From Watersipora subatra (lineage: Eukaryota > Bryozoa > Gymnolaemata > Cheilostomatida > Watersiporidae): 64,000 bases of DNA. Position numbers and translations under genes: made by a program. The stretch lies in the NCBI RefSeq assembly GCF_963576615.1, contig NC_088717.1, positions 17,594,108 through 17,658,107 on the forward strand. The letters run 5' to 3'. The notes beneath the pieces are model-generated. The model was given only the letters and a program-made list of their open reading frames with translations. It did not search any database and was not told the DNA's origin. Every line of letters begins with the position of its first letter. The stretch's first letter is position 1. Positions 644 through 36,200 of this stretch are shown here, one piece after another.

Positions 644-3600
644 GGTTATGGGCCCAGGAAGACTCTAATATCAAGCAAGCACCATGGATGATAAACTGTC
701 TGTGGATAAACTTACTACGTCCAACTATTCTACATGGCGATTCAAACTGAAACATTTGCTCATTGCAAAGGAACTTTATGAACATTGTGACGGTAGTATT
801 ACAGAGCCAACGGAAGGTGCAGATGCTAAGAAAGCTTATATAAAACAATCACAGAGAGCTCTTAGTCACATTGTATTGGCGATCAGTGATGAATTCATAT
901 ATTTGATCACTGAGTATGAGACACCGAAAGCAGCGTGGGAGAAGTTACAGTCTCACTTCGACAGAGACACACTAGCAAATCGGATATATCTAAAGAAACC
1001 ATATTTCAGAGCTATCATGCGTGATGGTACATCTATAGAAAATCATCTAAAATATATGAAGGATATTGTAAACAAGCTCACGGCTATCAAAGCCCCGGTG
1101 AGCGAGGAAGATCAGGTAGTAACACTGTTGGGCAGTATGCCGAGTAGCTATGCAACTGTCGTGACAGCCTTAGAAGCGCAAAAGCCTGAAACCCTAACAT
1201 TAGAATTTGTTCAAAACGCGTTACTCAATGAAGAGCAGAAACATGGCGTAAAAGCTGCTGAAATGGATTCTGGTGAAAGCGGCAAGTATGGAAAAACGAC
1301 TTCAAATTCTGACACTGCCTTATATACCGTCGGAGATAACACGTATGAGAGAAGATGCTATAACTGCAATTCACCATATCACATGGTCAAAGATTGCACA
1401 GCGCAACAGAATAGTCGAGGTAACTACAATCGTGCTAACTACAATCATGGAAACTATAGTCGCGGAAACTACAGTCGTGGTCAGGGCCGTGGTCGTGGTC
1501 AGGGCCGTGGTCAGGCGAATCAGCATGGAGCTAAATTTGTGACTGAATCTCAAGCAACTGGAATTAAAAGTGAGGAGAGCGCTTTTCTAGTAGGAGAAAA
1601 TATAGCGGCAGCGAAAGAATGGCTCATTGACAGTGGGGCAACTCATCACATGACTCCTGAAAACAGTGGTTTCAGTACATACACAAAGTTTGACCAGCCT
1701 GAGAAAGTTGCTATAGCGGACGGCAGAGTATTGGATGCCATAGGCTCAGGTAACATTATGATATCAGTGTCCGTTAGCCGGAAAGTGAAAAGAAAAGCCA
1801 CTCTCCACGATTTACTTCATGTACCAGATTTGAAACAAAATCTATTCTCTGTACAGTCGGCCGCTAGTAAGGGTATGATAGTACAATTTGGCCACAGTAG
1901 ATGTTGGGTTAAGAACAAACCCCACCAAATACATGCTATGGGAACTCTCGTTGGGAAACTTTACTATTTAGATCTGGAGTCGTCTGATCATAAAGCTAAT
2001 CTAGCGTCGTCGTGTAACGATATATGGCATAAGAGACTCGCTCATATCAATCCTACCAGCATCGGACTTATGAACCGTGAACAGCTTGTTACAGGTGCCG
2101 ATCTGTCTAGCGTAAGTGTAGGTACCATATGTGACCCTTGTGTGAAAGGTAAAATGGCTCGAAAACCGTTTATAGCTAGAGATTGTATTAAATCTACTAG
2201 AGTGCTAGAACTAGTTCATAGCGATGTATGTGGTTCAATGCAGAATAAATCAATTGGTGGCAGTAAATATTTTGTGAGTTTTATCGATGATTTTAGTAGA
2301 TTTTCGTATGTGTATTTTATCAATGAGAAATCGGATGTATTTTCTGTATTTAAAGAGTTTGAAGCCTTGGTGACCAAACAAACCGGCCAGCCAATCGGAA
2401 CCCTTCGAACTGACGGTGGAGGGGAATAAGTATCAAGCGAATTTGAAGAATACCTGCGCTCTCAAGGTATTCAGCATCAACTAGCCGTTAGATATTCACA
2501 ACAGCAAAATGGTGTAGCAGAACGGTATAATCGCACTGTATGTGAATTAGCCCGCGCGTTAGTAATCGACGCCGCATTACCGAAACATTTCTGGGCTGAG
2601 GCCATTTCAACAGCTGTTTATGTTAGGAATCGTGCCCCACTACTGCTCACCATGAGCCCACAACTCCATACCAGCAATGGTACAACTGTAAACCAGATAT
2701 TAGTAATCTAAGGGTGTTTGGTTTTTTAGCCCATGCTCATGTACCAAGTGAGCTCCGTCAGAAACTGGATGATAAAGCAGAGACAATGATGTTTGTTGGC
2801 TATAGCCTTAGATCGAAAGGCTATCGTTTATATAATCCTTCTACTAAGAAAGTCGTAGTACGCCGAGATGTCGTGATAGATGAAAATAGGTTAGGGTTAC
2901 CAGAGTCCGACACTAACCAATGTGAGGATGAAGACAACTCCGAAAAGCTGATAGTTGAATTACCAGAACCTGAAAATCACTCAGCAGTTACACGAAAATC
3001 ACAGCGAAACCCCAATCCTATTGTAAGATTCGGGGTTGATGAGTATGTCAATCATGTGGCTTGCCTCACCAGCAATATAACTGAACCGCTAACAATGTCA
3101 GAGGCTATGTCTAGTCCCCAATCGAAGCAATGGATGAATGCTGCCTCCGAAGAATACACCGCATTAATCGATAATCAAACCTGGACATTAGTAAAACTAC
3201 CGGCTGGTCGTAAAGCCATTGGTAGTAAGTGGGTGTTCAAAACCAAGTGCAAACCCGATGGAAGCGTGGACAGATTCAAAGCTAGATTAGTAGCCAAAGG
3301 GTATAGTAAAAAACAAGGAATAGATTACGATGAAACATTTGCACCAGTAGTGCATCGGTCATCACTTCGAGCGCTTCTATCATATGGCACGGATAGAGGC
3401 ATGTTGATACATCAAATGGACATAGTAACAGCTTTTCTCAATGGTAAAGTTTCTGAGGAATTATTTATGACACAACCTGATAGATTTGTATCGCCTGGAA
3501 ATGAAGAGTTGGTATGCAAATTGAATCGCTCCTCTGTATGGCCTAAAGCAATCATCACGATGTTGGAATCTAGTCCTCGATGAGTATCTGCGGCAGCTTG

Positions 3601-4712
3601 GCTTCTCTCCTTCGAGCGTTGAACAATGTGTCTATGTACGTAACGACCATGGCGATCAAACGATATTAGCGGTCTATGTAGATGATATCGTAATCCTAAG
3701 TAACACTGATCAATCGATGAAAATAATCAAAGAATCGTTAAGTTCAAAGTTTCAGATGGAAGACCTAGGGCAACTGCAATTTTGTCTAGTTACAAACGTG
3801 GAATTCACAGACACCTCAGTGAAGCTGCACCAGAAACATTATATTCAGCAGATTCTTGAGAAGTATGATATGTCCGACTGCAAAAGTGTAGCAACCCCGT
3901 TCGCTACAGATATACAACTAGTGAAGGATGACGGCAGTAAATCTGTGGATCACACTCCATATCAATCGATCGTAGGCAGCCTTCTCTACGCATCTACAGC
4001 TACACGACCAGACATCGCACATTCTGTGGGAGTGTTGTCGAAATTCAATTCCATGCCGACCCAAACGCACCTCACTGCCGCAAAGCGCGTTCTCAGATAC
4101 TTAAAAGGCACCATGGACTATGGGATTACATTCAACAAAACTGACACACAACCCGTTGGTTATTCAGATGCTAACTGGGCTGAGAACAACGAATCTAGAC
4201 ACTCGATATCCGGAAATGTTTTTGTCTAGCAGTGGGCCAATCAGCTGGTTCAGTAAACGCCAATCGACAATCGCTCTGTCTTCAACAGAAGCCGAGTATA
4301 TCGCAGCTTTCGAAGCTGCAAAAGAGGCAGCCTGGCTACGGCAATTATTTGTTGACATTACTCGAGAGACATTACCACCAATAGTACTCCGCATAGACAA
4401 CCAATCGGCTATCAGCATAGCAAACAACACTAACGTTAGTAAGCGCAGCAAGCATATGGATATAAAATATCATTATATTCGACAAGAAGTCCAAAACCAC
4501 AATATAGTCACAGAATATTGTCCAACTGATGATATGATAGCCGATATCTTCACCAAACCCCTACCTAAAATTCGTTTCGAGAAACTTCGTGTTATGTTAA
4601 ATGTGGGATAGACGCCTGGCTGGCCGGTAACTAGGAACATTATTATTACAGGGTGTACGCTTCGTATTTGCATACATTATTTTGTTGTGAAATTATCAAA
4701 ACTATGTGGGAG

Positions 4713-6099: not shown

Positions 6100-8234
6100 T
6101 CACAAGAGCGCGACTATGTCATCAATGTGCACAATAGCGTTTTTCCCTTTCGACACAATGAATTGATTCGCCCCTACAGTTTTGAGAAAATCTACCAATA
6201 TCTCATCAGTATCTTTTATTACCTCTGAGATGACAGCCACAAAATACTTGATCGTTTTCTTGCTATGCACAGAAGCCAATACATATTCTGATACATTCAA
6301 GCTGTCAATATTGAGGATATTTCCAATTTCATCTCCAGCTTCACTTATCAGCTCATCATCACTCTTGTCTCCCAGTTGTTTTGCCAACCAACTCTCCTCA
6401 GCTTTGATTTCCTTGTCATCACTAGATTCAGGAAGAACTTCCTTTCTTGGCCATTTCTGTAATAAACTCAAATTTCAAGACCTTTCACAATGCAATTGAA
6501 ATGACAAGATAAGATGATTCTTTGTCTAGGAAATCCCACAAAAAAAATTTTAGTAATTGCCTTGTTTACTTCAATTTTATCTTGTAACTCTCACCACACC
6601 TCTAATCTTACATATTTGGAACAAATAACAATTTTAACGTGGTAAATTATGAAAAATAAAAAAACATTCACCTTTTTTGTCTCAACTTTACTGTGACTTC
6701 TGCTAGCTCTTTCCTCTGCGGTTTTGGCTATGTTCCCCTTCCCAGGCGTGTCAGTCAAGATGGCGGTAGGATTTCTTTTGTATTGCAAGAACCTTTACAG
6801 GGTGCTGCTTTTGGAAATGGATGAATCTGTTCCGGTGCGACAATTTGCATTGTGGAGCAACCAGGGAAAAATCATCAATAGGGACGATGGAAGACGAAGG
6901 TGAGGCTGCTTTATGCGAAGGAGGGATATCATCTGAAGCGGTTACTTCAAGAGTGGAGAGAACATCAGGTGGTGCTGTGATGACTTGTAAATTATTATCT
7001 TTGTTAGGATCGACAACATCAACTGCATATGGCCTGTTGGTCAGAGAAAAAAAACAAAGAACTAATCATCAGAGAATGTGCCGAACGCACAACGAGATGC
7101 CAGGTTTACGAAACTCTACTACGATGTTAGGGGCAGTCATAACTCTACCAAAGGTTAATCTGAGCATTTCAGCCATGTTAAAGTGTAGATGCTGGATGTT
7201 GCTGGAAGTGTTTTTCGTGGATTTTCTAGTTGCCACGAATTATCAGAAATATCCAGGGGCTGTAACTTGTGGGAGCAATGTGGTGGGAAAGTGAGTATAA
7301 CTACACCATTCTCCTTTGCAACATCAATTGCGTCAATAGATATGTGGCTATCATGGTTATCTAAAATTAATAGAATGGGTTTATCATTCGACGCTCGAGT
7401 ATTATTGATAAAATGCTTTAGCCACTGCAGAAATATGAGGAATTAGCAGCACCAACAGTGCCTGTTGGAGCATCTGACAGCATGTAGTTCTTGAAGTTGA
7501 CCCTTGGGAAGACCAGCATCAGTAGAATTAAGCCTCCAGCGGCATTCACACAACATATCACAGTAGTCAAGACTCCCCACTCGACAGAGGTAACTTGTCC
7601 AACTTGTTTTGTTTTTCTGTCAGCTATCACCTTGGGTGGCTTTTGGACTGTAGTCATACCTGTCTCATCCATACTCCAGATGGATGTGTATGAATATCTA
7701 CTTTAAACATCATATAGATTTTCATGAAATTTTTTCACATTTGCTTTATTGAAGCTGGTACCTCAGCTCAGACTTGTTGCCTCTGGTTTTCCACACAAAA
7801 GGTCTCTGTGTCTTTTCAAGTATCTGCTTATTCAATCTTCCCCCAGCACTATCGGTCTCATCCTATCTGAGATGATAGCTACAGTGGTTTTGTTTAACAT
7901 AGTCCCATGATAACTTTCTTAGTTGCTTTTTTATCAGTCCGTGTTGATGCCTCGAAGCTGTGAGCAAGTATTCTTTCATTAACAGTTCCCAATGAACTGT
8001 AAAAACTGTTGGATGTGCTTTTGTTTTTGAGAAGGACTCGACATTATTTATTCCTTTGTCTTGTGCCTCATTTACATAACGAGTCAAGGTAAGTCTCGAT
8101 ATCTTCTGGTCCTCAGCGACTCTGCACACTGCAAGGCCTTTCTCAACCACCATCTTCACAGCAGCCCTCATTTCGACAGCAGGGGTTCGACTTTTCTTAC
8201 GGCCATCAGCCTTTTTCTTACATGTATGCACCAT
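6100..8234 (-). pseudogene. Tigger/pogo-type DDE transposase gene, decayed
   Basis: Read on the minus strand. The N-terminal part (from ATG at 8234) has a Psq-like helix-turn-helix: KKSRTPAVEMRAAVKMVVEK, then VCRVAEDQKISRLTLTRYV. Next come FNKANVKKFHENLYDV, then the catalytic DDE_1 region: MDETGMTTVQKPPKV near 7670, LLILDNHDSHIS near 7340 and TFPPHCSHKLQPLD near 7270, which carry the expected acidic residues. A C-terminal part follows (LTDTPGKGNIAKTAEERASR near 6750). A GT-AG intron (donor AAAAAG|GTGAAT near 6669, acceptor TTACAG near 6459) joins it to a last exon ending at 6100. Breaks are plain: a TAA after NLYDV, a stop and frame change near 7440, and frame changes near 7180 and 7850. Non-functional copy of a DNA transposon. 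Confidence 0.85.
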
Positions 8235-8351
8235 CTCTTTCTTTTTAGTAGCGGTCTCAATACTGATCCTTTTATATAAAAATAATATATAAAAGCGAAC
8301 ACCTTTTAAAAGCCGTCCCAAATATAAACGAAAGTGAGTCTGAGCAACCAA

Positions 8352-9200
8352 ACTTAATGAGTTGAGGTGATTATAATTGGTACAAATTGTGATTGAGATC
8401 TGAGGCCAAAGTGTTTCAAAATTAGCCTAACTGTATTTTAGCTTAAAATTACCTTTTTATTACCCTTGTTCTGGTGTAGGAGCACTGAGAATAAAGAGGG
8501 GTATAGTAGACCATGTTCAGTGTGCCCCACTTCACATTGTTCATTGTGCCCCAACTTCGCCTTGTGAGAAAAATTGAGATGAAAATTTCACAGCTTCTGC
8601 CCATTGCTTATGTTGAGTATTGAAAAAAGAAGAGATCATTCATGCTCATCTATATTTACATTAAGAAATACATACCTATGACAGTGTAATGTATATGTTC
8701 ATTTTTAGCTTGAATGGCATACAAGAGCTTTTCCTCTTTTAGCTATCTATTACGAAATGATGAAAGTAAACTTCTGACATCATTTCCTGTGAACTATAAC
8801 TGGCGTGACAGCTCTCAATTAATTGTATTTCAGTAAAAAAGGATGTTAATTGTGCTCCCATGTTTAACGTGTTGAAGAAAACTCTTAGGAGTGGGGTGGA
8901 GACAAATCTTACTTCTAGCGTATTTGCGCTGAACCCGATGCTGCCGACGATACAGCCTGCTGAACCCAACATGAAGAATATGAAACCAACTCACTTGTTA
9001 TCTAATTATTTGTTGCAATCTTGTCCGAGCTTGCTGCTAGTATTTTAATAACGACCAGAAATGATATTGCTCCAACGAATAAATGATTTTACTATGGTAA
9101 TAATATTATGTGTCTCTTTTAAGAACAAAACACGAGCTGACTTTCCCAACAAATTTCAGCAGTTCTCCTTTATATTAGTGGAATGCCTTGACATTACATT
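8352..9200. other. No gene seen; possible transposon end
   Basis: Non-coding, AT-rich. At 8516-8560 a run CAGTGTGCCCCACTT with a second GTGCCCCA nearby looks like the kind of CAGT-starting terminus used by pogo-group elements, and would suit the upstream end of the transposase copy at 6100-8234. No matching inverted end was found near 5.2-6.1 kb. Confidence 0.3.
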
Positions 9201-9734: not shown

Positions 9735-10200
9735 TTGTTATGGTTTCATAGGCTTTGGGGGAAGAAGAGAGAGAGAGAGTACTTGGTGAGAGTGGAAAAG
9801 TTGAGTAGAGATATGGATTTTGGTGATGGTAATGATGATTTGAGGCAGCTCTTTTGTATAGCTCTAGCGGTGAATTGTTTGCGTGATTCCAGCGCGAAGA
9901 AAGAGTTAATGCAGGAGACTGACTTAACTTGGGAGCAATTATCCAACAGATTAAAAGCTAGACATAGCTAGGGAATCAGTTTATTATCATTAGGGATAAG
10001 AGAGATATCAAGGTAGAAGTCACAAGGTGAGAGCAGATAGCGAATTTAGTGACAGTAGTCCTGTTGCACTTGTTTGCCGAGTTTCTGAGAAGAGTGAGAA
10101 ATCTTGTGGAGAGCGTTCTAGTTTTAGTCTAGAAGAGATAGTTCAGATAGTGATAGGCCTGACACCTTTTCACCTGGAGAGGTAGACGAAGTTATAAAGG
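9735..10200 (+). mobile_element. Gag-like fragment of an LTR retroelement, fossil
   Basis: The frame from about 9735 reads LRQLFCIALAVNCLRDSSAK then KELMQETDLTWEQLSNRLKA. This resembles the Gag segment of Gypsy-type elements in which a predicted 'LRDRLV.GLRD..IQ..LL.E.DLT' run precedes the zinc knuckle. Only a fragment is visible and no LTRs were found. The identification is tentative. Confidence 0.4.
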
Positions 10201-10379
10201 GTTCTCATCTAGGCGATATAATTCTCCTGCTAGAAGTATTACTTGCTTTGACCTATTTACCTATGCGATATATGTCATTGTATGGGAGCAAATACCCAAC
10301 GGCTTTGTGTACTACGCAGAGTGATTGCCTAATGTCACCGAGAGGGTAGCTACATATTATTAGTACGCTTACTCAAATT

Positions 10380-10479
10380 ATGCATTGGCAATGCACCAAG
10401 CTAATAGCAAATAGCAGGCAAATCTTATTGCTTATAAACTGATTTTTAATATCCGGGCAACACCGGGTAGCACAGCTAG
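10380..10479 (+). mobile_element. Helitron 3' end
   Basis: Ends with a short GC hairpin (CCGGGCAACACCGG) followed by GTAGCACAG and CTAG, then T in the flank. This is the Helitron terminal signature: a hairpin a few bases before CTRR, inserted at A|T. How far the element extends upstream is not clear. Confidence 0.55.
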
Positions 10480-10485
10480 TATATA

Positions 10486-11064
10486 TATATTTCTCAAAGT
10501 TGGCCGTATGTCGTCTGTATGTGCATTCGGCTTTAGCGCAGCTGATTATTTTACCGATGCGGCCACGCGTCACGATGCCCCTCTTAAGAAATATTTTTCG
10601 TAAGGTATGATTACTATATCTGAGGTCGTCTATGCTTATCGCAGGCGAACAATTATATTGTTTTCTTATCATCGTATTCAAAGTTTTGATGGATAGCTTC
10701 TAGTGGAACAGCAACCTTTTTTATACACACACTTCTATGCAAAAATTGTTATTATTAATTCTACATATTCAGGATTTTTACTTTGGTTGCTCAGTTTGTA
10801 TTAATTGTACCATTACCGAATCATCTTTTATTGTATTCGTAGCAAAGCAAACTTAATTTAGCTATTACTTGCTGATTATGTCACATTTACAACTAAACCT
10901 TTTTGTAGTCGTTTTATTTTTTTAATTTATTTGACCGCACGAAACATTTTCCTCATGATATAAAGTTAAAAAGTTACAATGGCAAATACTGTTATATTTT
11001 AAATACAAATCACTTTTCTGACCAAAAGCTTTTATTAACCAGGCAACGCCGAGTAGCACAGCTA
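10486..11064 (+). mobile_element. Non-autonomous Helitron, interrupted at its 3' end
   Basis: Begins near ATTTCTCAAAG, like the 5' ends of the other copies. It shares with 36650-37125 the interior landmarks CTATTACTTGCT, TTTTCCTCATG and TTTTATT. It ends with the hairpin CAGGCAACGCCGAG and ACAGCTA. The final CTAG is split by the transposon at 11065-13170: CTA lies at 11062-11064, and after the inserted element comes a duplicated CTA followed by the last G at 13174. About 580 bp, shorter than the 1.1-kb copy at 49286. Confidence 0.65.
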
Positions 11065-11654
11065 GGCCACTCATTTTTGATCATTAGGTTCACAAATCCG
11101 CCGACGCGAGATAAAAACTACCGCTGAAAAAATAAAAAGTCTATGTGTACTTTTATTTTTATTTGAACCGCCGAAACTTGCAATTTGTTGATTAATGTTT
11201 TTTTGAAAACGTAACGTTAGCTTTCTTGTAACAGCATTATATACACAGTACTATTAAACAGATCTACTGCATTTGGTCGAATTCGGTTAGGAAATTCCCA
11301 CTGGTATTACGAGTATACATTTGCGTTTGGTCACTATGTGCAACAATCTAACCGCAGATGATTTACAAAGGGTCAAGCTCGGTATCGGAAAAAATGACTT
11401 TCCCAGTTAACACTGGAGAATAACATGTCGTAAACACTGTTTGTTGTAAATTTCCGACTGGGATACTGGCAATTACCATTGAGAAGTTGCTTATCCAATT
11501 CACCAACTTATCTGTCAAGGAAAAACGTAAATGCAAACAATTGAGTGTGTACTTATGTTGACTTTCAACCACGGAAATCTTTTATGACATTCCATGTGAT
11601 TTGTGACCGCTTTACCTCAACATAAACCACGTGCGAATCCTCCGTGATGGCAAA

Positions 11655-13124
11655 ATGGCTTCGGACTGTTATGTCAACATTTCTTGCAGCGGTAAGAAAT
11701 CATTTCATGGAGTCGGTTTATCAAATTCACAGAACATCGGCGACTATATATCGCAAAAACTAAATGTGGACAAAGAAAGTATAAAATCTGTGTTCGCTTT
11801 CACGAAGGAGGGTCGATCCGATACTAGAGCAGTGCTCGACATGCCAGTGGTAACCATAGTCAGAGACTTTGACTGCCACTATATCACTGTTGAGCTTGAA
11901 GACGGATACAGCACAGACGCTATCAAATGTGAACCGGACGTCAGACACCCGTCAGCACTCGATGTGCTCATGGCATGTATGTATATATATATATATATAT
12001 ACATATATATTGTGTCCCTTGCCTAAGCTCTGAGCTGCACTGATGAGGCTTCAATAGCCGAAACAGTACTGTCTGTAGCATGAGTATATATATATATATG
12101 TGTATGTATATATATATATGTATATATATATATCTACAACAAAAATGTTAAAAATTATATATATATATATAATTTTGAACATTTTTGTTGTAGGAAAGTG
12201 GCTACCCAAAAGGTTGTTGTGTTCAACACCTTATTGAATAAGATGAAGAGTATGGGCATCGGCTTCCTTGCAACTCAGGTGGAGGGCATCGGTCGAAATG
12301 TTGTGAGCACACTCACAAGTGTAAGTGTGCTATGGCTCCTAGATACCCATCGCGAAACTATCAAGGAAAGAGCTATTGTTTTACCCTTTGAAGAATTTAC
12401 AGGGTACAACGACTACAAAATGCAAAAAAAAACCTGTGTTGCATGTGGATGAACTGAAGCAGAACATTGATCGTTTGTGTGAACTCTTGAACCATCCATG
12501 GTTTTCAAACAAAAATTTCCAGGATTTCCAAAGTGAAGAGTCCAAGCTTGTTCAAGGAATGAAGTCCTATCACGACTATCTTCTTCGTCAAAGAGAAAGA
12601 ACAGCTTCCAACCACGCATCTCTTGAACCAATCAGAGCCATGAAAGACACCTGGACTCTGCGTCATCTTCCTGCCTCTCTGGGACCAATTCCATGTTGTG
12701 GATGCAGTCCAGAATCTTCATGCATATTGTCCAGTATCACTACTGGACCTGGAACCTGAAGACAGACATGAACGGCGACAGTAGTTAGAAAAGCTATCAC
12801 TTCCCTTTCCAGCCACCTTGTACTCCTACCACCATGGCAATTCTCTGGGAAACAAACTTCCTATGGCAGCGATCTGGAGAGAAAGATGATGAAGATACTA
12901 TCAAAACTGTGACTTCACTAAAAGAAACAATACCAATCTACTCGACACGTACAATGAGGCGAGAGTTCACAAACCGGTACCCCTCTGTTAAACCAGCACT
13001 TCTAAGGTCAATGTACAACTTTTTGAGAGAAGACGCATCAGCCCCAGTAAATGCAGCAACAGCCAGTGTTGATTATCGATTAGAGGAGTGTCTGCTTGCT
13101 GCTGATGATACCGACATACTCTAA
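11655..13124 (+). CDS. Unrecognised gene inside the TIR transposon
   Basis: Start ATG at 11655 lies in a good context (AAAATGG). Exon 1 (11655-11980) encodes about 109 residues beginning MASDCYVNISCSGKKSFHGV. An intron of 213 bp (11981-12193; GTATAT...TTGTAG) joins in phase to KVATQKVVVFNTLLNKMKSM. The frame then changes by one base at a run of nine A near 12420 and continues as KPVLHVDELKQNIDRLCELL. After a further frame change the C-terminal part (to a TAA at 13122-13124) contains REFTNRYPSVKPALLRSMYN followed by FLREDASAPVNAA. The A-run shift could be real decay or a read error. I do not recognise the family, and there is no visible DDE or HUH motif. Whether it is the element's own transposase or an accessory protein is unknown. 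Confidence 0.5.
12034..12079 (+). ncRNA. Hammerhead self-cleaving ribozyme (type I, minimal stem III)
   Basis: All conserved parts are present in order. Stem I is GCTGCA (12034-12039) pairing with TGTAGC (12074-12079), five Watson-Crick pairs and one G-U. The core CTGATGA follows at 12040-12046. Stem II is GGCT/AGCC (12047-12050 with 12056-12059), loop TCAAT. Then GAA (12060-12062), stem III ACAGT/ACTGT (12063-12072) with no loop, and C at 12073 as the predicted cleavage position. A stem III with no real loop is known from retrozyme and Penelope-associated hammerheads in animals, which work best as dimers. Here it is a single copy, flanked by TA microsatellites, in the sense strand of a transposon intron. 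Confidence 0.85.
12134..12193. repeat. 60-bp palindrome abutting a splice acceptor
   Basis: CTACAACAAAAATGTTAAAA on the left is matched by its reverse complement on the right, ending ACATTTTTGTTGTAG, with a TA-rich centre. The only clear mismatch is A versus C in the TTAAAA/TTCAAA part. The last bases TTGTAG serve as the intron acceptor of the transposon gene. Confidence 0.85.
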
Positions 13125-13174
13125 AATGTGTTGAAAAATCTGTGAACCTAAAAATAAAAAATGAGTGGCCCTAG

Positions 13175-13529
13175 TTTTCTATAGACCTCAAAAATGGCGT
13201 CTGTCATCTTCTTTTCAGTCTATTGTAAATAAAAGCTTATGGCGTTGCTCTCCCATAGCTCTTTGTGAGGCCATCACTAATTTATAGTTTGCTCGCTAGA
13301 ATAGTTGGCTAAGTTTTTAATAAGTTTACTATTAGGCTTACATATTTTTATCCGTTTGGTACCTGTTCAATAAAAAAGTGTCAGCTTATAACACCAGTTA
13401 ATCACAGTTATCTCAGACCTCGTGGAGCATAAAACACTATAATAACACTGATAGTGAAAAGGAGAAAGTGCCTTATATGGTGTATGATTAGAGACTGTTG
13501 TAGTGTATCGTGATTACGACCAACCGAAA
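13175..13529. other. No recognisable feature
   Basis: Short AT-rich spacer between the Helitron/transposon nest and the Gypsy fossil. No open frame or repeat identified. Confidence 0.4.
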
Positions 13530-16500
13530 ACGATACCTACGGATGAGGCGAGCCTCACGAGTGATGCGAGAGGCCCGGTTTATACACTGAAACTAGCCAA
13601 GACTACGCGTACTGTCTAGAGAGTTACGTACCTACTATAGGTGTATACTGCATGGTGTCAGAATATACGAACCTTGTGTACTACTATTGTACATTGGGAA
13701 TTCAGCTATACTGATTGCTTGGTAGCTACTAGTGTTATTGGTTAGTTGGAACCTTATGAGAATAAAACACGGACGGTAGTTTATTATTAAGTTGTTGAAT
13801 TTGCAGGAATTCACATATTGTGCTTGTTCATTGTCACTGTACAGTGGTTTGTTGAAACCATTGTGAGTATAGTGTATGCATGTCCCATTGCTATATTTGA
13901 ACTGCTACTGATTCTTGGGTTGCTAGGCCCAATAGCACTAGAGTAATAGAGGTATACTGCACAACGTAAACATGGCAGAACCACAAGACTATAAGTTTAC
14001 ACAACGCCTGAACTTCAAAGACAGTAGTAGCTGGTCTGCGAGTTGGAAAACATTCAAGTCACAGTTTGCTGTTGTTAAAATTGCCAAAAAGTACTCTACT
14101 ATGTCGGAGGAGGAAAGGGTAGCTAATCTGTTACTGTTGATGGGGTTGGACAGCGTAAAAATATACGACTAGTTCACATTTGACGATAGTAAAGATGAGA
14201 AAAACTCTAGACAATGTAATAAAATATTTTGATCCGGTTAAAAATGTAATTTATGAGAGAGACAAGTTCAATGATATGAAACAGGGAAATTCATCCATTC
14301 ACCAGTTTATCACTGATGTCCAAACACAAGCAGGGTATTGTGAGTATGATAATATGAAAGATAAACTCATTCGTGATAGGGTAGTAGGAGTGAACAATAG
14401 AAAAATGAGTAAATATCTCATTCACCTAGACAATTTGACTCTACACAAAGCGATTCAAACGGCCAAACAATATCTTGCTCACCATTCATCCGTATTAAAA
14501 ATGAGCAGTAATGCATCAGCAATTGACAATTTGGATGAAGTCAGAGCTCGACAACCATGAGGGTTCAGTAGGAGTGGAACCAAAACAGCACCAGGGCAAA
14601 AGCAAAAGTGCCCATACTGTAGCAGAAGGCAGGTGCACACGGAGGATAGATGTCCAGCAAGGAACGCTGTATGCTTTGCATGTAAAACTAAGGGGCATTA
14701 TAGCAAAGCTGCAGTCTGCGAAGGAAAACAATCACAAGCTCGTGCAGCAGATTAAGTAGTGGACGAAAAAACCGAGCTGGGTGGCCTATATTTAGGATCG
14801 AAGTCGGAATGACTAGGCCTGGATTGCATAGATACTGTCATCACAGAGACCTCTACTATCTACTCTTTGTTATCGCATGGCTTGTCGATAACAAAGTTAA
14901 TTTAACCTCTGTGACTTATAAACTCAACACCGGCGCTGCGGTTACAGCTATCCCTGAGTCACTGAGACATTGTGTGTCGTTTGTTCAGCCTTCTGATAAA
15001 ATGCTGAAAGGGGTGGGTAATCACAAATTAGAAGTTCTGGGTGTAGCAGAGGCAGCCATAATGGCAGGGTCTAATGTCATAAAAGGATGAGTGTATATAG
15101 TGAAAAATCTTGTGATGCCATTACTGAGTAAGCCAGCTATAACAGGTTTAGGGCTTCTAGGTTCTGTAGACAATGTTCACCCAGACAGATTGGATGTCTG
15201 CGTTTCCTAAACTGTTTAAAAGACTAGGTACAATGGAGACGGAAGCGCAAATTGTTTTGAATGACTCGGCACTGTCTTTTGCGAAGAATGTACATCGGAG
15301 GGAGGCCGTGGCAAGGAAGCAACCCTTGTTCGAGGAACTGCAGAGAATAGAGTCTTTAGGAGTCATCGAAAAGATCGAAGTACCAACAGATTGGTGTGCT
15401 CCGTGAATTGTAGTCCCGAAAAACAGTGGGATGTTACGACCCTGTATAGACTTCACAAGACTAAATAAAGCAGTGAAACGTGAATTTTACCCACTGCCTA
15501 ACACACAGGAAACCCTCAGTGAACTAGGAAACTCTAAGATCTTCAGTAAATTGGATGCAAGTTGCTATTACTGGCAAATGAAGTTGCACTCAGAAGCACA
15601 GAGATTGACCTGTTTCATTACGGCTTTTGGGAGGTATATTTGCAAGAGGCTACCATTCGGGATGAGCTCTGCACCAGAGATATTTAAAAAAAAAGTGCAA
15701 AAGATTTTAAATGGAATCAATGGGATCATCTGCCAGATGGATGACATTCTGGTGCATGGCTCTACTAAGTATCAGCATGAAGGAAGATTAAGAGAAGTAT
15801 TGTTGAGGCTACAAGCTGGAGTTACACTGAATGACTCAAAATGTGAATTAGTATTAGAGTTGTTGGACTCTTTACAGACTTCATCAGGTAGGCTAAACAG
15901 GATAAGAGCAGCAATTTTGGAAGACGATGTCAGGAGGCTGTCGGATAAGTTTACGATAAAGGGTTGGCCATCAGGTAAGGAGGTCCCGGAAATGTTAAAA
16001 CCTTTTTATACTTTCAGAAACTACCTGACATCAATCGATGGAGTACTCTTCTCTCTAAATAGTCTTCATTCCGAATTTATAAAGAGGTAGAGTTCTACAA
16101 GAAATACATACCGGACATCAAGGATAGACCCAGTGCGTACGGAGAGCGGCTGAAGTGGTGTGGTGGCCGGGTATATGCAAAGATATCAGGGAAGTAGTGA
16201 GGGATTGTCCCGCTTTTGAAGAGTTTCAAAGGAAACCGAGGGAGCCACTTATAAGTACACCACTGCCGGAAAAGTCGATGTGGAGGCTTGCCATAGACTT
16301 ATTTAAACATGAGGGAATAGATTACATGTTGGTTGTGAACTAGTATAGTAGATATATCGCGTTACATGGGTTGAAGGAATTAACGAAAGCAGGACCGATA
16401 ATAAGCGAACTGGAAAAACTTTTTGCATGATTGGGGTTCCAAACACGATCATGAGTGATAATGGTCCGCAGTTAGTAGCTCAAAGTTTCAAAAGGTTTGT

Positions 16501-18535
16501 GACAAAATGGGACATTAACCATATCACGAGTGCGCCCAAGTGTGCCCAAAGTAATGGGGAAGCAGAGAGGGCAGTTCAAACGGTTGAGTCATTGTTAAAC
16601 AAGAATGTTAACCTACAAGCAGTGCTCTGCGCATATAGGGACACTCCTCTAGCTAATGGATATTCGCCTGGGCAGTTGTTTAATAGATCTATGAACTTAA
16701 TAGGCATAATGTCGAGTAAGCAAGTTAACATTGGTAGAATAAGGACATTTGAGAGAGACCAAAGAGAGAAACAAGGAACCAACTGTAATCATCGCAGACA
16801 CGCTGCTAGAGATAGAAGTCCGATCGCTATTGTTCAGAAAGTCATAGTGCAGGAGCCAAAAAGGGCACCAGCACCTGCGACAGTGATTGCAGCACAAAGT
16901 CGGGAGATAGTGGTTGTTAACAAACAACAGAGCTTGATTCGAAGGAATACGTCACAAGTAGCCCGTGCTCAGGCACCAGGGATAGTGAAACAGGCTTCGA
17001 AAGGTCAGAGGAAAGATCTAGAAACACTGTACCTGAGGCTACATAGCCGACACGAATTCCAGAAGAAAATCTGGTACAACGTAACAAATCGATGTTGTCT
17101 CCAAATAACTTTGAAAAACAACTAGAAAGGACGTATTTCGAAGTGGTTCAGAGCCCGGTCATCAAAACGACAAATGCAGCACGAACTAGGTTTGCAGAAC
17201 GTCTAAACCTGTGCAGAGAGTAAATTCGTAACACATTATTTAGGTTCTGTTAAATTTATTTAAATATGAATATCTTTGTGTTAGGAAAATCCAAAGCTCG
17301 ATGATTGTCGAATCTTGCATGGGAGTTGATCAGCATACCTGGGGCAGACTGGTATTGATTAATCACAGAATTATGTATTTGAGCATAGTCGGAAATTTGA
17401 AAATTCTATTATGTATAAACATATTGGCCCTATGAGATTTTCAGAACTCATCCACAAGAGAGGTGCTACGGAATGCCATATTCGCAACCATAGAACACTA
17501 TCCAGTGTGTCATCTGTATTTAGGGACTGGTTACGGTTACTCGCACCGTATAGGATTCACCCGGTTATTTGCAACAGTATATCCTATGTGTTTCGCAAGA
17601 TATAACAGGCACAGAGGGGTAACCATCGATGCTCGCCATCGTAACCTACTTCAGTCATTAACCAGCAAAATCAAAAGCATGACTGTCATCGAAAAACAGG
17701 GACATCGTGGATTTTAATGTCAGCAACGACAGTGTAACGCCATACATGCACAGAAAAGTGTATACAAGACAGCGAGAAAGGTATGTCTTTAGAGACGAGT
17801 ACCGCTCAAATGGATTACATTCCGATGCCAGAATGGTTGAAGATTGGCGAAGAGAAATACATCGAGCTAATGATATCAACCAGGAGACATTGGATATTGC
17901 GAGGACACGTCATATGTCCATGTACGTGTGTGTGTAGGCACCGCTTGTCTCGAGTATCTTGGTGTGTAGGCATCAAAATTGTAAATATTGTATATATGCA
18001 TATCTAACATTCAATGTAAATACGATATTGGTGTGCAGGCACCGAACTAAATATCATATATACGTGTAGCTAACACTGACTGTAACTGTTATAATTAAAA
18101 GAGAAAAGAAAAAAATGCAGGGTGAGCGAGATGTTGTGATTAGTTGTGTTTTGTGCCGGTGTGTACGACTCGATAAGTATGATACTGCCGCGGGTTGTTA
18201 TTTTATTTGTTTTAGGTGTGTTGGCACCAGGCGTCTCAATCCAAGAGTGGGGCAATGCTTGAGATTTGGTTTTAGGGCAATTGATGTATCAATGATAGTA
18301 TATATATTATTGTGGAAATTGGGGCAAAAAATCTCACGCATTTTCATTTTTTATTTGGTGTGATTGCGTGAGAGTTGGCAGGCCTGGTTGGCACCTATTG
18401 GCTGAAGAGATATGCCATACATCTTAGAAGGATACCTACAGATGAGGCGAGCCTCACGAGAGATGCGATCTATACACTGAAACAAGCCAAAACTGCACGT
18501 ACTGTCTGGAGAGTTACTTACACACTACAGGTATA
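13530..18535 (+). mobile_element. Gypsy-type LTR retroelement, old broken fossil
   Basis: Parts in order: Gag from about 13972; two zinc knuckles near 14610-14740; a protease remnant near 14920; reverse transcriptase near 15340-15780 (LRPCIDFTRLNKAV, then LPFGMSSAPEIF, then a QMDD core); integrase near 16130-16720 (NTIMSDNGPQLVA). The order RT before integrase makes it Gypsy (Ty3), not Copia. A direct repeat of about 110 bp (GATGAGGCGAGCCTCACGAG) at about 13533-13640 and 18433-18530 is probably what remains of the LTRs; full LTR ends could not be set. It carries many breaks (at least seven) and the flanking repeats have diverged, so it is old. A loosely repeated segment of about 70 bp with GGTGTGTAGGCA lies near 17930-18045. 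Confidence 0.8.
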
Positions 18536-24200: not shown

Positions 24201-27200
24201 TTTTAGTTTCTTGTGACGCCCCACCTTGCTCAACCCCTGACTCAGAGATGTCCATCTATGATTCATGGATGTTCACCTATGATTCATAGAAGTTCACCTA
24301 TGGTTCATAGATGTTCATCTATGATTCATAGATGTTCACCTATGGTTCATAGATATTCACCTATGATTCACAGAAGTTCACCTATGGTTCATAGATGTTC
24401 ATTTATGATTCATAGATGTTCACCTATGATTCATAGATATTCACCTATGATCCATAGATGTTCACCTATGATTCATAGATGTTCACCTATGACTCATAGA
24501 TGTTCACTTATGACTAATAGATATTCACCTATGATTCATAGATGTTCACCTATGATCCATAGATGTTCACCTATGATCCATAGATGTTCACCTGATTCAT
24601 AGATGTAACTGAACATCAGGAAGTTAGCGCTATCACTCATTGCTTCTCTCTAAATCACTTTAGCAAAGTTCATGAGAGACTGTTGACATAACTAGTATTA
24701 TCCAGTGTCTCTCATAAAACCGCTGACTCATCACATCGAGCTCATCCTCCTTTGACTCTTCCTTGAGTTAATTCGTGTTTAACTATTACCCTAGGACACT
24801 TATGTATTCGCTTCATCTAACTTTCGCATTTTCGCGGAGTCATCCTCTCGCGAAAATTTCATGTGCGAAACTAAACTATCATAACGAACGAGCGAAAACA
24901 CGAAATTAAATAGCTTTGTTCATTGATAGTCCAAGAAACAAATGGCAGCAAGCGATCAAATTGCATTATCGATCTCACCCATACCATTCTACCTGCGGTT
25001 CACAATTACAAACTAGTCTCAAATTGAAATTTTTTTTCTTATCGGTGAACCAAGCCCATATTCCCTGGGGCAGCTGGCCGGCTGAGCCGTCCCAACTTTT
25101 TAGGAACTTTCCACGGCTAAATAGTAAATACAGTCAAACTCGGATAACTCGCCCTCGGATAAAATGTAACATTTCATCTCAAACACAAGGTTAACTCGAA
25201 CGGATTTGTTTGGTCCGTTCCCACGCAATGATAAATGGCTTCAGATAACTCGACCTCAACATCATTTATTCGAAAATTTATTTGCCCAACGGCTATGGAG
25301 ACGGTTTTTATCGCTGTAGAGTATCATTTTATTCGAAGCCATAGAGACAAACATCAACTTTTAGTAGTTCTCAGGCATCATTATTATCGTCATCAGTGGA
25401 AAAATATTCTTGTTAACGACCTTTATAAAGGTTTGCAAAATATCAAGTTTTACCAAACATCCGCTTGGCCATGTCCCATCAAAAGCGTGGAAACTTCCGT
25501 ATGAACTTAAAATAAAATCGGCAAAATTGATCTTTGTTGAAACGCTCAAAAGAAAAAGATGACTTTTTTCTGAGCATTTTAACTGCGGTCAAGTTTTGCC
25601 TATTTTAATTTTAAAATCGTCTCGTCAGTCACATCACCTAAAACTAAACAAATTTCAAAAAATAGAAAAATATTGATTCTTTCCGATAAAAAAATTTTAA
25701 ACTTCACGCGAGAGGCCCGGCTGAGGCCCTACATAAGAAAAACCTGTTGGGCGCTTACACCGCCCCCCTCAACACACCCAGGTGTTCATAACTAGCCGCC
25801 TAACATTAGCCGCCCCAACTTGCAATCAGTGAATACAGGCCTGCGGTGAACTGAACCTGAGGAATCTAATTATGTTTGTTCCACTGCATTTATTTTCACA
25901 TCGTTATATTTTCGCACTCATCAGAGCTGCGAAATTAAGTTGCAATGAAATTTTACTCTGTATGCTACTCACGAAACTAAATACTAGCGAAATATAAGTG
26001 TCCTAGGGTACATCGGGCTTGCTGGGAATGCTAACATTCAATAACATTGTGGGATGATCTTTAATAGGCGTGAATGTCTAATGCTGGTACTTTGAGCTCA
26101 AGATATTGAAATCAATAAACTATAACCCTAAAAGTAAAAAAAAAGTTTTGGCTTTTAATTGATTACTGAGTTTAAAATTGATCTCTAACCAATGCACAAT
26201 GTAACCGGCAATCTTAGCATTGTTGATTGATAGTCACTAAGTCTCAAGAAGGCAAGGGTCCTTCGAAGATTATGTGAATATCCATACAAATATTTTTGTG
26301 TAACAGATAATCGATAGAATAACGTTTTATGTGTCAAGAACGCATTGTGAAGCTTGTACTCATTTCACTGAGAAGGCTATATCATAGCTTAAATGTTTTT
26401 TGCACGATGGCATCTTAAACCCTCTAATCAACGTTATAGGTCATGGAAGGTCTAAACTGATACGATGTTGCAAATTGAGGATTTGTCGATCAACTTAGTT
26501 TTTCAACGCACCTCGGTCAAAAAACTATATATTATTTGATGTGTTGGCTCGTTTTTATATATCATCAAACCATATCTTTGACATACCATCACCTCATTCA
26601 CACTTCAAGATTTATTCTATAGAACTTCAGCTGCACGATGCTTAATGTCATTATGAGAAAACAAATTAATAATCGACCGAAATTCAAGCATAGTTTGCAC
26701 TTCCGATCCTATTCTATCATTCAGGCTTGCTGGAAGTATACAAATACTAACTTTAGACTCCTATCAACACCTAAAATATTTGTCAAGAAATGCGACGGAT
26801 ACTTTGTCAATGACATTCAATGCAGTGAAAGACACATATATCTCCTCTGCTCAGTGGCTGGTCTCCCAAAGCTCTCCTTTTTACAGAAACTCATGTATTT
26901 GGAGCACTCATTTTATCGACGAGGTACAGAAATGTTCTTTCTAAGGTGTCTACAAATATTTTGTTGGTTGAATCTATTCATATATCTTAAGTTTCTTTAG
27001 TTTTACTTTTTCGTTTTTAACATTGTATGCTAACCTATTATACTGGATACCGACATGACCCTCATGTTACCAGCTTTTCAACGAGCAAAGATCTTGTTAA
27101 TGTCATTTTTAATTCCACTGACACTGGAAAACTTTCATTTTAATAACTTTTGATATTTAACGGTTTTTTATAAGGGAGCACAGGCTATGAATAATAAAAA

Positions 27201-30200: not shown

Positions 30201-33200
30201 ACGGTAACTTTTTACCATCACCTACAACGCTTAGATTCCTAACTAAGTACTACAGTCTTGCTGGTTAGAGCTCATTGAGACCTAAACATTTTTGCCGATC
30301 TAGTTGTCTCAGGCAGCCGATGGCTGTTCTATTCCTAGTGGTGGAATAATTTATCTACTCGTTCATTTTGCATGAGGTTTACTTGTCACAGCAGGTCAAC
30401 CTCAATAATACAGCGAATATAGAAAATGTATACTAGCTGTACATTCTATATTCTAATCTCCTTCCCTTTTTCCATTCTTCTCTGTCTCTCTCTCTTTTCA
30501 TCTCATTCTCTCCATCCCTATTTCTCCCCATCCCTATTTCTCCCTTTCTCTATTCCTCTCTTTCTCTATTCCTCTCTCTATTCCTCTCTTTCTCTATTCC
30601 TCTCTCTATTCCTCTCTTTCTCTATTCCTCTCTCTATTCCTCTCTTTCTTTATTCCTCTCTCTATTCCTCTCTCTATTCCTCTCTCTATTCCTCTCTCTA
30701 TTCCTCTCTCTATTCCTCTCTTTATTCTCTCTATTCCTCTCTCTATTCCTCTCTCTATTCCTCTCTCCATTCCTCTCTCCATTCCTCTCTCCATTCCTCT
30801 CTCCATTCCTCTCTCCATTCCTCTCTCCATTCCTCTCTCCATTCCTCTCTCCATCCCTATTTCTCTCCATCCCTATTTCTCCCTTTCTCTATTCCTCTCT
30901 TTCTCTATTCCTCTCTTTCTCTATTCCTCTCTCTATTCCTTTCTCTATTCCTCTCTTTCTCTATTCCTCTCTCTATTCCTCTCTCTATTCCTCTCTTTCT
31001 CTATTCCTCTCTCTATTCCTCTCTCTATTCCTCTCTCTATTCCTCTCTCCATTCCTCTCTCCATTCCTCTCTCCATTCCTCTCTCCATTCCTCTCTCCAT
31101 TCCTCTCTCCATCCCTATTTCTCTCCATCCCTATTTCTCCCTTTCTCTATTCCTCTCTTTCTCTATTCCTCTCTCTATTCCTCTCTCTATTCCTCTCTTT
31201 CTCTATTCCTCTCTCTATTCCTCTCTCTATTCCTCTCTCTATTCCTCTCTCCATTCCTCTCTCTATTCCTCTCTCTATTCCTCTCTCTATTCCTCTCTCC
31301 ATTCCTCTCTCTCTATTCCTCTCTCCATTCCTCTCTCTATTCCTCTCTCTATTCCTCTCTCTATTCCTCTCTCTATTCCTCTCTCTATTCCTCTCTCTAT
31401 TCCTCTCTCTATTCCTCTCTCTATTCCTCTCTCTATTCCTCTCTCCATTCCTCTCTCCATTCCTCTCTCTATTCCTCTCTCTATTCCTCTCTCTATTCCT
31501 CTCTCCATTCCTCTCTCTCTATTCCTCTCTCCATTCCTCTCTCCATTCCTCTCTCTATTCCTCTCTCTATTCCTCTCTTTCTCTATTCCTCTCTCTATTC
31601 CTCTCTCTATTCCTCTCTCTATTCCTCTCTCTATTCCTCTCTCTATTCCTCTCTCTATTCCTCTCTCCATTCCTCTCTCTATTCCTCTCTCTATTCCTCT
31701 CTCTATTCCTCTCTCTATTCCTCTCTCTATTCCTCTCTCTCCATTCCTCTCTCTCCATTCCTCTCTCCATTCCTCTCTCTATTCCTCTCTCTATTCCTCT
31801 CTCTATTCCTCTCTCTATTCCTCTCTCTATTCCTCTCTCTATTCCTCTCTCTATTCCTCTCTCTATTCCTCTCTCTATTCCTCTCTCTATTCCTCTCTCT
31901 ATTCCTCTCTCTATTCCTCTCTCTATTCCTCTCTCTATTCCTCTCTCTATTCCTCTCTCCATTCCTCTCTCTCTATTCCTCTCTCCATTCCTCTCTCTAT
32001 TCCTCTCTCCATTCCTCTCTTTCTCTATTCCTCTCTCTATTCCTCTCTCTATTCCTCTCTCTATTCCTCTCTCTATTCCTCTCTCTATTCCTCTCTCTAT
32101 TCCTCTCTCTATTCCTCTCTCTATTCCTCTCTCTATTCCTCTCTCTATTCCTCTCTCTATTCCTCTCTCCATTCCTCTCTCCATTCCTCTCTCTATTCCT
32201 CTCTCTATTCCTCTCTCCATTCCTCTCTCTATTCCTCTCTCTATTCCTCTCTCCATTCCTCTCTTTCTCTATTCCTCTCTCTATTCCTCTCTTTCTCTAT
32301 GCCTCTCTCTATTCCTCTCTCCATTCCTCTCTTTCTCTATTCCTCTCTCTATTCCTCTCTCCATTCCTCTCTCTATTCCTCTCTCTATTCCTCTCTCCAT
32401 TCCTCTCTTTCTCTATTCCTCTCTCTATTCCTCTCTTTCTCTATTCCTCTCTCTATTCCTCTCTCCATTCCTCTCTTTCTCTATTCCTCTCTCTATTCCT
32501 CTCTTTCTCTATTCCTCTCTCCATTCCTCTCTTTCTCTATTCCTCTCTCTATTCCTCTCTCTCTATTCCTCTCTCCATTCCTCTCTCCATTCCTCTCTCC
32601 ATTCCTCTCTCCATTCCTCTCTCCATTCCTCTCTCCATTCCTCTCTCTATTCCTCTCTCTATTCCTCTCTCTATTCCTCTCTCTATTCCTCTCTCCATTC
32701 CTCTCTCCATTCCTCTCTCCATTACTCTCTCCATTCCTCTCTCCATTCCTCTCTCCATTCCTCTCTCCATTCCTCTCTCTATTCCTCTCTTTCTCTATTC
32801 CTCTCTCTATTCCTCTCTCCATTCCTCTCTTTCTCTATTCCTCTCTCTATTCCTCTCTCCATTCCTCTCTCTATTCCTCTCTCTATTCCTCTCTCCATTC
32901 CTCTCTTTCTCTATTCCTCTCTCTATTCCTCTCTTTCTCTATTCCTCTCTCTATTCCTCTCTCCATTCCTCTCTTTCTCTATTCCTCTCTCTATTCCTCT
33001 CTTTCTCTATTCCTCTCTCCATTCCTCTCTTTCTCTATTCCTCTCTCTATTCCTCTCTCTATTCCTCTCTCTCTATTCCTCTCTCCATTCCTCTCTCCAT
33101 TCCTCTCTCCATTCCTCTTTCCATTCCTCTCTCCATTCCTCTCTCCATTCCTCTCTCTATTCCTCTCTCTATTCCTCTCTCTATTCCTCTCTCTATTCCT

Positions 33201-36200
33201 CTCTCTATTCCTCTCTCCATTCCTCTCTCCATTCCTCTCTCCATTCCTCTCTCCATTCCTCTCTCTATTCCTCTCTCTATTCCTCTCTCCATTCCTCTCT
33301 CTATTCCTCTCTCTATTCCTCTCTCCATTCCTCTCTTTCTCCGTCTGTCTCACTTCTTTCATCTCTTTCGCTCCCTCCATTCCACCTTCCCTCCTTTTTT
33401 TCTCTTTTTTTTCGTTCCTTCTCTACCTCTCTTTTCCCTTCTCTCTCTTCGTCTCCCTTGCTTTTTTGTCTCTCGTCTGATGAGTGTGGATATATGAGAT
33501 AGTTTATACCATAAACAGACTTTGGTTTAAGTTGAAGCCATTGTGTTTTCGTCGATTGTGTTATTATGTTACAACTCCTTGTCTGAGAAAGCAATTTCTG
33601 TTGATGGGACATTATCATTCCTTAAGCGCAACTTCTTGTGGCTTTCCTAGAAGTTGCTCCTGAAGAGTTGGAAGATGAAATTGGGCCAGAGATCCAGCTG
33701 CCTCTAATGACCTCTCGAAGAGTAACGAGGTCAAGGTCACAGACGCCTGACCTTTCTACTCCAGGGTAAACTCTCAATCAAGTTGTTCTACTAGTTTAGT
33801 AAGCACTTTGCTTAGGTGTTAATTTCACACAATTTCAAACTGTCTCAATTTGGTTGCTAATCACAAAATACACTTGATAACAGGGTGTTATTTGTGTTAG
33901 ACTGTATATAGTCATACCTCAACATACGAGCTCATCTGCTCACTAACTGGCAAGGAATACTCCTATCTGTCTTTGTCAGCGGAATCTTTTTCATGATTCA
34001 ACGATTCCATCGACTTACCGACGCTAATTTTTGCGTTGTGGGACTTCATTATAGCATATCTAAGTACAAATTAATCTGTTAGCATTCTATGAAAAAACAC
34101 CTAAACTGGATATTAGGGTGGAAAAACGTGTTTGTAATTGTTGTAATTCAGCACACGGGCTAAAAAAGTAACAAATACCTATGTAGATGTTTTTATCCGC
34201 AATAAAATGTAACATCACTATATACACTATGGAGTTTTTACCTTCGAGCCAAACGTTGTGGGTAACAGCCCTCTGAGAGCCTTTTGTGACTCAGCGTATT
34301 TGAAACTTTGAATTTAACTTCAATGGATTTAGCTTAATAAACACACACTTGAAGCAAAGTTTCATTTTGCACAAAACTTACTTCAATTATTTCATCATTA
34401 TTGTTAAGTATCCACTTCCAGTTAGCAATATTTTGCGTCGTATTCTCTATAACTTTTAGCCAACCTTTTAAATATTTTTCTCAAACCGATTTGAGAAGAA
34501 AGACCCAGCGATGCTGTTCTCGAAAGCGGCCTCTCACATACTTCACCGTATAGTGCCCATCGACAGCCAGCTCGTATCTCAAAGATGACTCGTATCTCAA
34601 AGATGACTCGTATCTCAAGGACGAAACTTGCTCCAAAATCAGCTTGTATGCTCCAATTTCTCGCGTGTCATGCCACCCGTATATAGAGGTATGACTGTAT
34701 AGCATCTCTAACCAAAATAACAGACTTCATAGTATGATAATTGTCTCAAGTACAGGTAGTCCTCATTTAACGATGACCTTGCTCAATGACACCTCAGAGT
34801 TACTATGGTATGTTAAATATTGTCAAAGTTGTATATATATAAAAATATATAAATACAAATATATATATAGAAGTTAAATAAAAAGAAAGTATATTTCTTA
34901 AAACCACTTAAATCTATAATTCTCAAAGAATGTCTTCTGTCTGCGTTCCGGCTATAGATCTTAAAATCTTGATATTTAAATTTCGCGTTTTAATGGATTT
35001 GAACTGACGACGAGTTCCTCGAATAGATTCTAATCCAGACGCTCTACCACTGAGCTAGAACACCATAGTGGTCAGAGGTGTTTTAATATAACGTATACAT
35101 CATGCGTGTGCTAATTATTTTAGCCTTGCATCTATGAGTTAGATGCTTCTATTCAGAAATATTTTGAGACCGGAGTATATGCAATGCGATGCTTATTCGT
35201 CTTTTTGCGTTAGGGCTCATTTATTTGGCCCCGCGATATCGACAATAATTTATCTCAAACTTAAAATTTGGCGATTTGTGTACTGATGATATAAGTTATT
35301 AAAAGATATGCGTCGCTGAACTTGCCATGGCGAGTTATCTGTATCCGTTATATGGTATGTCTGGTATCCGTTAAAATAAAAATGTTTCGCAATGATAAAA
35401 CTAATGTTAAAAGTTCAAGGTTTACTAAAATACCTACTAAAACTTCTTTCAAGTATGTGTTTAGTAAACTAAATTCATTTAAAGGTTGACTTGCAACAAA
35501 ATTCACATTACAGTTATTTGGTATAAAAAGATTCACCATGTCTTTCTCTGCTGCGTTGTAGGTGCAAGATATGTGGAAATGTGATTACAAGCTCTTAAAA
35601 GCTCAAAAACAAACAGTTGATCGCAGCCATCACGAAATCGCCGTATATCCATATATCTGTAGATCGGAATCAGTTTATTTCTCTGACGTAGTCATTACAT
35701 TTGGTTTTTGTTTTGTCACATGATGTTCTCACGTAAATTGAAAGGCCAATAAAAGGCTCAATATACAACTTCTCGTAGCACTAGTTTATGACAAACACTT
35801 CGGGTTTTACCGAAGACCCCGTATCAAATATAGATGCTCGCTACTTTACAGTTTTGTGGCGGCTTGGTCTAATCGTCAAGTCGTAATCTGATCACGTAAC
35901 CCATACTTCGCAAACATTTTCTGCAGCATTTTTCGATTATCACAGGTGACCAACAGGATCGTCATGTTTATCAAACAATGATATGTACTCTTTCGAGCTA
36001 AGGTTAAAAAATTAATCGAATTTTCACGGTAGGTTATAAGATATCAGTGCTGAACGTGACAGCATTACAATGACAATAAAATAGACGCGTAAGAACAATA
36101 GACATGGTTTTATTGAATGCGTGAAGTATATTTGTGAAAATATTTTGAAGAATGAGGTTGCGTGAAAGTGTAAACAGAAGCCATCTTGTACAACTACGTC

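Follow-up and report, generated by a model that had tools for sequence, protein, structure and literature searches.

A type I hammerhead ribozyme in the probable intron of a decayed transposon-like element of Watersipora subatra

The window, by which we mean the whole 64-kb stretch of W. subatra DNA that was analyzed, contains at positions 12034 to 12079 of the + strand a complete type I hammerhead; the identification is convincing, and the ribozyme is of a known kind, in which only the location is unusual. It occurs once in the 64 kb and lies within an element with inverted ends. We infer that it is, on balance probably, a genuine type I hammerhead of the animal kind, the lone copy left by a retrozyme- or satellite-type element and carried as a passive passenger in a decayed transposon.

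The hammerhead motif and its covariance scores

The ribozyme and its parts were located at the following positions.

12034-12079, + strand: type I hammerhead ribozyme, core with stems I, II, and III (pattern script, covariance model, and structure check)
12027-12085, + strand: extended ribozyme (structure check)
12063-12072, + strand: stem III, a perfect palindrome, ACAGUACUGU, short as a hairpin (palindrome check)
12073-12074, + strand: predicted self-cleavage site, of which the 5'-OH end would be 12074 (position from the structure)

Stem I (12034-12039/12074-12079) has 6 bp with a single G-U pair at 12037/12076, and stem II (12047-12050/12056-12059) has 4 bp. The core letters are CTGATGA at 12040-12046 and GAAA at 12060-12063, and C17, the base 5' of the predicted cut, is at 12073. 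The features by which a type I hammerhead is recognized (the CUGAUGA...GAAA core, three helices, H17, and an open stem I) were all found. The earlier note on this DNA had given exactly these coordinates, with stems I (one G-U), II, and III and a C at the cut; all core letters were in place, and all three stems were present in the structure check. Its description of a single copy in sense orientation relative to the gene of the element was borne out as well, as the covariance scan returned no second hammerhead elsewhere in the 64-kb window and the ribozyme is on the + strand, like the proposed exons. Outside the span reported in that note, stem I is extended by an outer helix of 4 bp (12027-12030/12082-12085), set off by an internal loop (UGA at 12031-12033 facing AU at 12080-12081) that might contact loop II.

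Three CTGATGA sites in the window accounted for 13 rows returned by a loose script, and only 12034-12079 passed strict criteria (stem I of at least 5 pairs, stem II of at least 4, stem III of at least 3, and C17). No site passed them in 150 simulated 64-kb sequences (first-order Markov), searched on both strands; the same 150 sequences gave 9 rows with a stem I of at least 3 in the loose script. A covariance model, built solely from 15 viral-contig sequences, selected from 47 pattern matches for a stem I of at least 4 and a stem II of at least 3, scored 12034-12079 at 48.1 bits (E = 6.1e-14, a rough value from a short calibration). The runner-up in the 64-kb window reached 11.7 bits (E = 0.29), and with filters off, no other match above 8.2 bits was found in 10000-14500.

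Covariance scoring gave a divided answer, positive with the viral-contig model and below gathering in the Rfam check that the earlier note had suggested: an 81-base query scored 23.5 bits with Hammerhead_HH9 (gathering cutoff, 52) and 17.7 bits with RAGATH-1-hammerhead (gathering cutoff, 56.3). The layout of the HH9 alignment of this query was similar to that of the extended ribozyme. A whole-window (64-kb) Rfam scan at an E value of ≤5 missed the hammerhead. Its 13 matches were to microRNA families, all below gathering, and were discarded as composition; those at the ribozyme locus fall on TA runs.

Stem III, folding, and viral-contig hammerheads

The pattern CTGATGAGGCTTNAATAGCCGAAAC had 110 matches in the viral contigs, at 109 loci and in 88 distinct contexts. 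It is common there (loci L032, L038, and L048-L154), with T as the central base in 42 matches, C in 27, G in 22, and A in 19. Nearly all matches (107 of 110) completed to a hammerhead with a stem I of at least 4 and a stem III of at least 3. A 25-nt stretch that begins with CTGATGAG, spans stem-loop II, and ends with GAAAC is shared without change by the window ribozyme and 27 of the 110, a likeness to these type I hammerheads that, on sequence comparison, likely reflects convergence: given that neither stem III nor the surroundings are alike, we read it as a commonly reached solution and not as common descent. Unlike the window ribozyme, none of the 107 completed viral-contig hammerheads has a palindromic stem III (whole stem, same stem II pattern), and in only 2 of the 107 is stem III that short (ten bases); the 15 model sequences likewise lack a palindromic stem III. 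In the viral contigs, no hammerhead core was followed by this exact stem III. Two matches in the genome contigs had no stem I by eye and were rejected as hammerheads.

When 12024-12088 was folded, a structure that opens stem III (-18.3 kcal/mol) was more stable than the hammerhead fold (-14.7 kcal/mol), and stem III pair probabilities were 0.0 in the nearest-neighbor fold. The stability of 12034-12079 folded alone was not unusual (z = -1.23). All hammerhead pairs were retained in the minimum-energy folds of 7 of the 15 model sequences and some were lost in 8; because these 8 also misfold, we take the fold that opens stem III as a caution about rate and not as a disproof.

The palindromic stem III could conceivably pair between two RNA molecules, and by analogy the ribozyme may be weak as a monomer and better as a dimer. 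The analogy is with the axolotl, for which the available text of one report (PMC7229834) describes a hammerhead family in which a stem III of a single pair is capped by a palindromic tetraloop and another, likened to invertebrate hammerheads, with a two-pair stem III and a tetraloop; both families cleave weakly as monomers and much better as dimers. According to the accessible portion of another source (PMC7761336), the majority of type I motifs in invertebrates are efficient as monomers, which speaks against a dimer requirement here.

The host element and the ribozyme spacer

The element and the spacer that holds the ribozyme comprise the following features.

11062-11064, no strand: CTA, left copy of a 3-bp flanking duplication (flank check)
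11065-11097, + strand: left terminal inverted repeat, starting GGCCACTC (inverted-repeat search and simulation)
11655-11980, + strand: proposed exon 1, with no known domain (ORF list, Pfam, and frame check)
11978-12010, + strand: left TA run (repeat check)
11981-12193, + strand: proposed 213-bp GT-AG intron, the frame being kept across the junction after removal (GT at 11981, AG at 12193)
12011-12084, + strand: 74-nt island of ordinary sequence with the ribozyme, a possible insert (between the TA runs)
12085-12133, + strand: right TA run (repeat check)
12134-12193, + strand: 60-nt near-perfect palindrome (97%) with a TA core, its right end being the proposed 3' splice site TTTTTGTTGTAG (inverted-repeat search)
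12194-12452, + strand: proposed exon 2, with a stop after an A run (ORF list, Pfam, and frame check)
12343-12759, + strand: further open piece, in a frame other than that of exon 2 (ORF list)
12789-13124, + strand: last open piece (ORF list)
13138-13170, + strand: right terminal inverted repeat, ending GAGTGGCC (inverted-repeat search and simulation)
13171-13173, no strand: CTA, right copy of the flanking duplication (flank check)

The cut-and-paste-like character that the earlier note had assigned to the element stood as far as its ends are concerned. The inverted ends agree at 29 of 33 bases, a value above that of every one of 300 simulated pairs (maximum, 23), and are flanked by the CTA/CTA duplication, which is short and has a chance of 1 in 64 if letters are equally likely. 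A transposase did not emerge: Pfam recognized no transposase domain in the four ORF pieces (11607-12026, 12084-12452, 12343-12759, and 12789-13124), among which there was one subthreshold match (GAIN_A, E = 0.015). Judged by its sequence, 11065-13170 looks like a decayed, non-autonomous DNA transposon. The reading frames suggest that the four open pieces are one broken gene, to which 12343-12759 and 12789-13124 probably belong. The 3-bp flanking duplication and the GG-starting inverted repeats are traits shared with PIF/Harbinger-like DNA transposons, from which the element differs in that no transposase domain was recognized.

The protein pieces are presumably similar to the N-terminal half of the members of a large uncharacterized protein family of invertebrates. 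No relatives were found for piece 12192-12449 in the viral contigs, genome contigs, or phages, for piece 12343-12756 in the viral contigs, or for the left-end pattern in the viral contigs. Because these collections cover viruses, bacteria, archaea, and phages but not animals, and the protein searches of viral and genome contigs used six short peptides each, this absence of relatives says little. Two PDB matches to piece 12192-12449 (E = 0.36 and 0.44) were unconvincing.

The 213-bp intron of the earlier note corresponds to a GT-AG interval of that length, the removal of which would preserve the frame, and the ribozyme spacer is probably an intron of the element gene. In the inverted-repeat search, 11975-12010 and 12092-12127 were 86% complementary, and the fold of 11970-12200 was much more stable than those of shuffled sequences (z = -9.4).

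Origin and possible role of the ribozyme

We rank first the alternative offered in the earlier note, in which a small retrozyme-type element inserted between TA repeats. The host gene is broken, yet no ribozyme pair is disrupted, a contrast consistent with a younger or independent insert; together with the animal-type architecture and the location of the island, flanked by TA runs, this leads us to regard the ribozyme as a solo relic or insert. Also counted in favor are the presence of a stem III and of an internal loop in stem I, which set the ribozyme apart from the minimal Penelope-type motifs in the available part of PMC7761336, and the palindrome of stem III, absent from 15 of 15 model and 107 of 107 viral-contig sequences. 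Counted against a retrozyme or satellite origin are the lack of a tandem partner in the 64-kb window, the lack of a target-site duplication readable in the TA runs, and the 74-nt length of the island, far shorter than a retrozyme monomer. Retrozymes are tandem repeats of 150 to 450 bp, each with a hammerhead, in the source text available to us, and since the ribozyme is a single copy in 64 kb, we have not filed it as a retrozyme. As a solo relic, the hammerhead would have been left by a retrozyme- or satellite-type hammerhead element and would be hosted as a passenger by the TA-rich, probably intronic spacer of the decayed non-autonomous transposon. Upon sense transcription of the transposon, the RNA would cut itself at 12073/12074, within the intron, perhaps at a low rate; the short palindromic stem III would make a single copy slow, and two RNAs paired through stem III might be more active.

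That such a sequence was assembled by chance, with no catalytic history, is extremely improbable in our view. The Rfam scores under gathering and a nearest-neighbor fold that favors a different structure would agree with it, but no site arose in 150 simulated windows, an independent covariance model gave an E value of 6e-14, and the 25-nt core with stem-loop II recurs letter by letter in 27 of 110 viral-contig core-pattern matches, the great majority of which (107) extend to a full hammerhead. It is unlikely, if far less so, that the hammerhead is integral to a DNA transposon family and cleaves the intron of its own transcript, modulating splicing or expression. The sense orientation, the in-frame GT-AG interval, the inverted ends, and the CTA duplication would suit that arrangement, as would the identity of the best Rfam match, HH9, which we take to be a family of intronic hammerheads of amniotes (RECK and C10orf118). 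The type I hammerheads in introns of human RECK and C10orf118 are active in vitro according to the accessible part of PMC3088659, and intron cleavage by another ribozyme class in Cpeb3 is timed to transcription of the next exon in that of PMC10919898. What weighs against an integral ribozyme is that it is a single observation, with no sister copy in collections without animals, that the gene is broken and its transposase domain unrecognized, and that the TA-bounded island looks inserted. In its strongest form, an animal cut-and-paste transposon family with a functional intronic hammerhead whose self-cleavage limits its own splicing, perhaps with a dimer switch at transcript abundance, this idea earns little credence from us; that the transposon family carries the ribozyme generally is possible.

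Comparably doubtful is a reading in which the ribozyme and its TA arms (about 11975-12133) form a single small unit, mobile or satellite, folded as a rod-like hairpin that is tipped by the ribozyme, for which the transposon gene served as landing site and in which there is no intron. The arms, inverted at 86%, can pair around the ribozyme, and the fold of 11970-12200 is exceptional (z = -9.4), but TA runs would pair in any case and the second palindrome contributes to the z-score, which makes the fold poor evidence for such a unit, and excision keeps the frame at the exact GT and AG.

In the portions available of PMC7229834 and PMC7761336, most descriptions of type I hammerheads in animals concern retroelements and their repeats. 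With metazoan non-LTR retrozymes, as covered there (PMC7229834), the window ribozyme shares type I topology, an extended, internally looped stem I, a low-GC setting, and a short stem III, here readable as two or three pairs with a tetraloop; they differ in forming tandem monomers of 150 to 450 bp, whereas the window ribozyme is single and lies between TA runs within an inverted-end element. Amniote intronic hammerheads are likewise isolated sense-strand motifs in an intron (proposed here), and theirs is the top Rfam match, HH9, but they sit in a conserved host gene and not in a decayed transposon gene, and the score is below HH9 gathering. Penelope-like elements and Terminons also have type I hammerheads tied to mobile DNA, in the text available of PMC7761336 and PMC6431247. 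Penelope-like hammerheads are described there (PMC7761336) as minimal motifs in PLE pseudo-LTRs, without stem III or loop contacts; membership was rejected on account of the stem III and the internally looped stem I of the window ribozyme. A nearby RVT_1 domain (15407-16087) is, moreover, closest to Ty3-like enzymes among solved structures.

Schistosome W elements share hammerheads in dispersed satellite-like DNA with the present case and set a partial precedent, in that hammerhead repeats and transposon fragments lie side by side; they differ in that the ribozyme families are satellite-like repeats, and a ribozyme within a transposon fragment is not stated in the accessible section of that report (PMC8490949). 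In the literature searched, represented by partial texts and with thin coverage of subscription journals, no DNA transposon with inverted ends was described as carrying a hammerhead. Carriage by a DNA transposon would offer ribozymes a second route into introns, a step preceding RECK-type domestication; a stray insert would be one more dispersed hammerhead, and ordinary.

Other mobile DNA was seen in the window. A copia-type element on the + strand (669-4611) has gag, integrase, and RVT_2 pieces broken across several frames, and the RVT_1 domain mentioned above belongs to a decayed LTR-type element (14159-17125, + strand) with a weak integrase match at 16352-17122. On the - strand, 7155-8426 is a DNA transposon remnant with a DDE_1 domain at 7155-7439 (E = 5e-11), which we assume may be of pogo/Tigger type. 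Exon-like fragments at 57660-57932 and 54733-55017 (54733-57932, - strand) had Ran GTPase-activating protein 1 as their best solved match. Taken with the copia-, Ty3-, and DDE_1-type remnants, these RanGAP1-like pieces mark the genome as eukaryotic and probably animal. A 3-kb C/T-rich repeat tract (30423-33497) is open in all three forward frames, and short-unit tandem arrays lie at 44757-45460 and at 24240-24540, the latter made of variants of a repeat like ATTCATAGATGTTCACCT.
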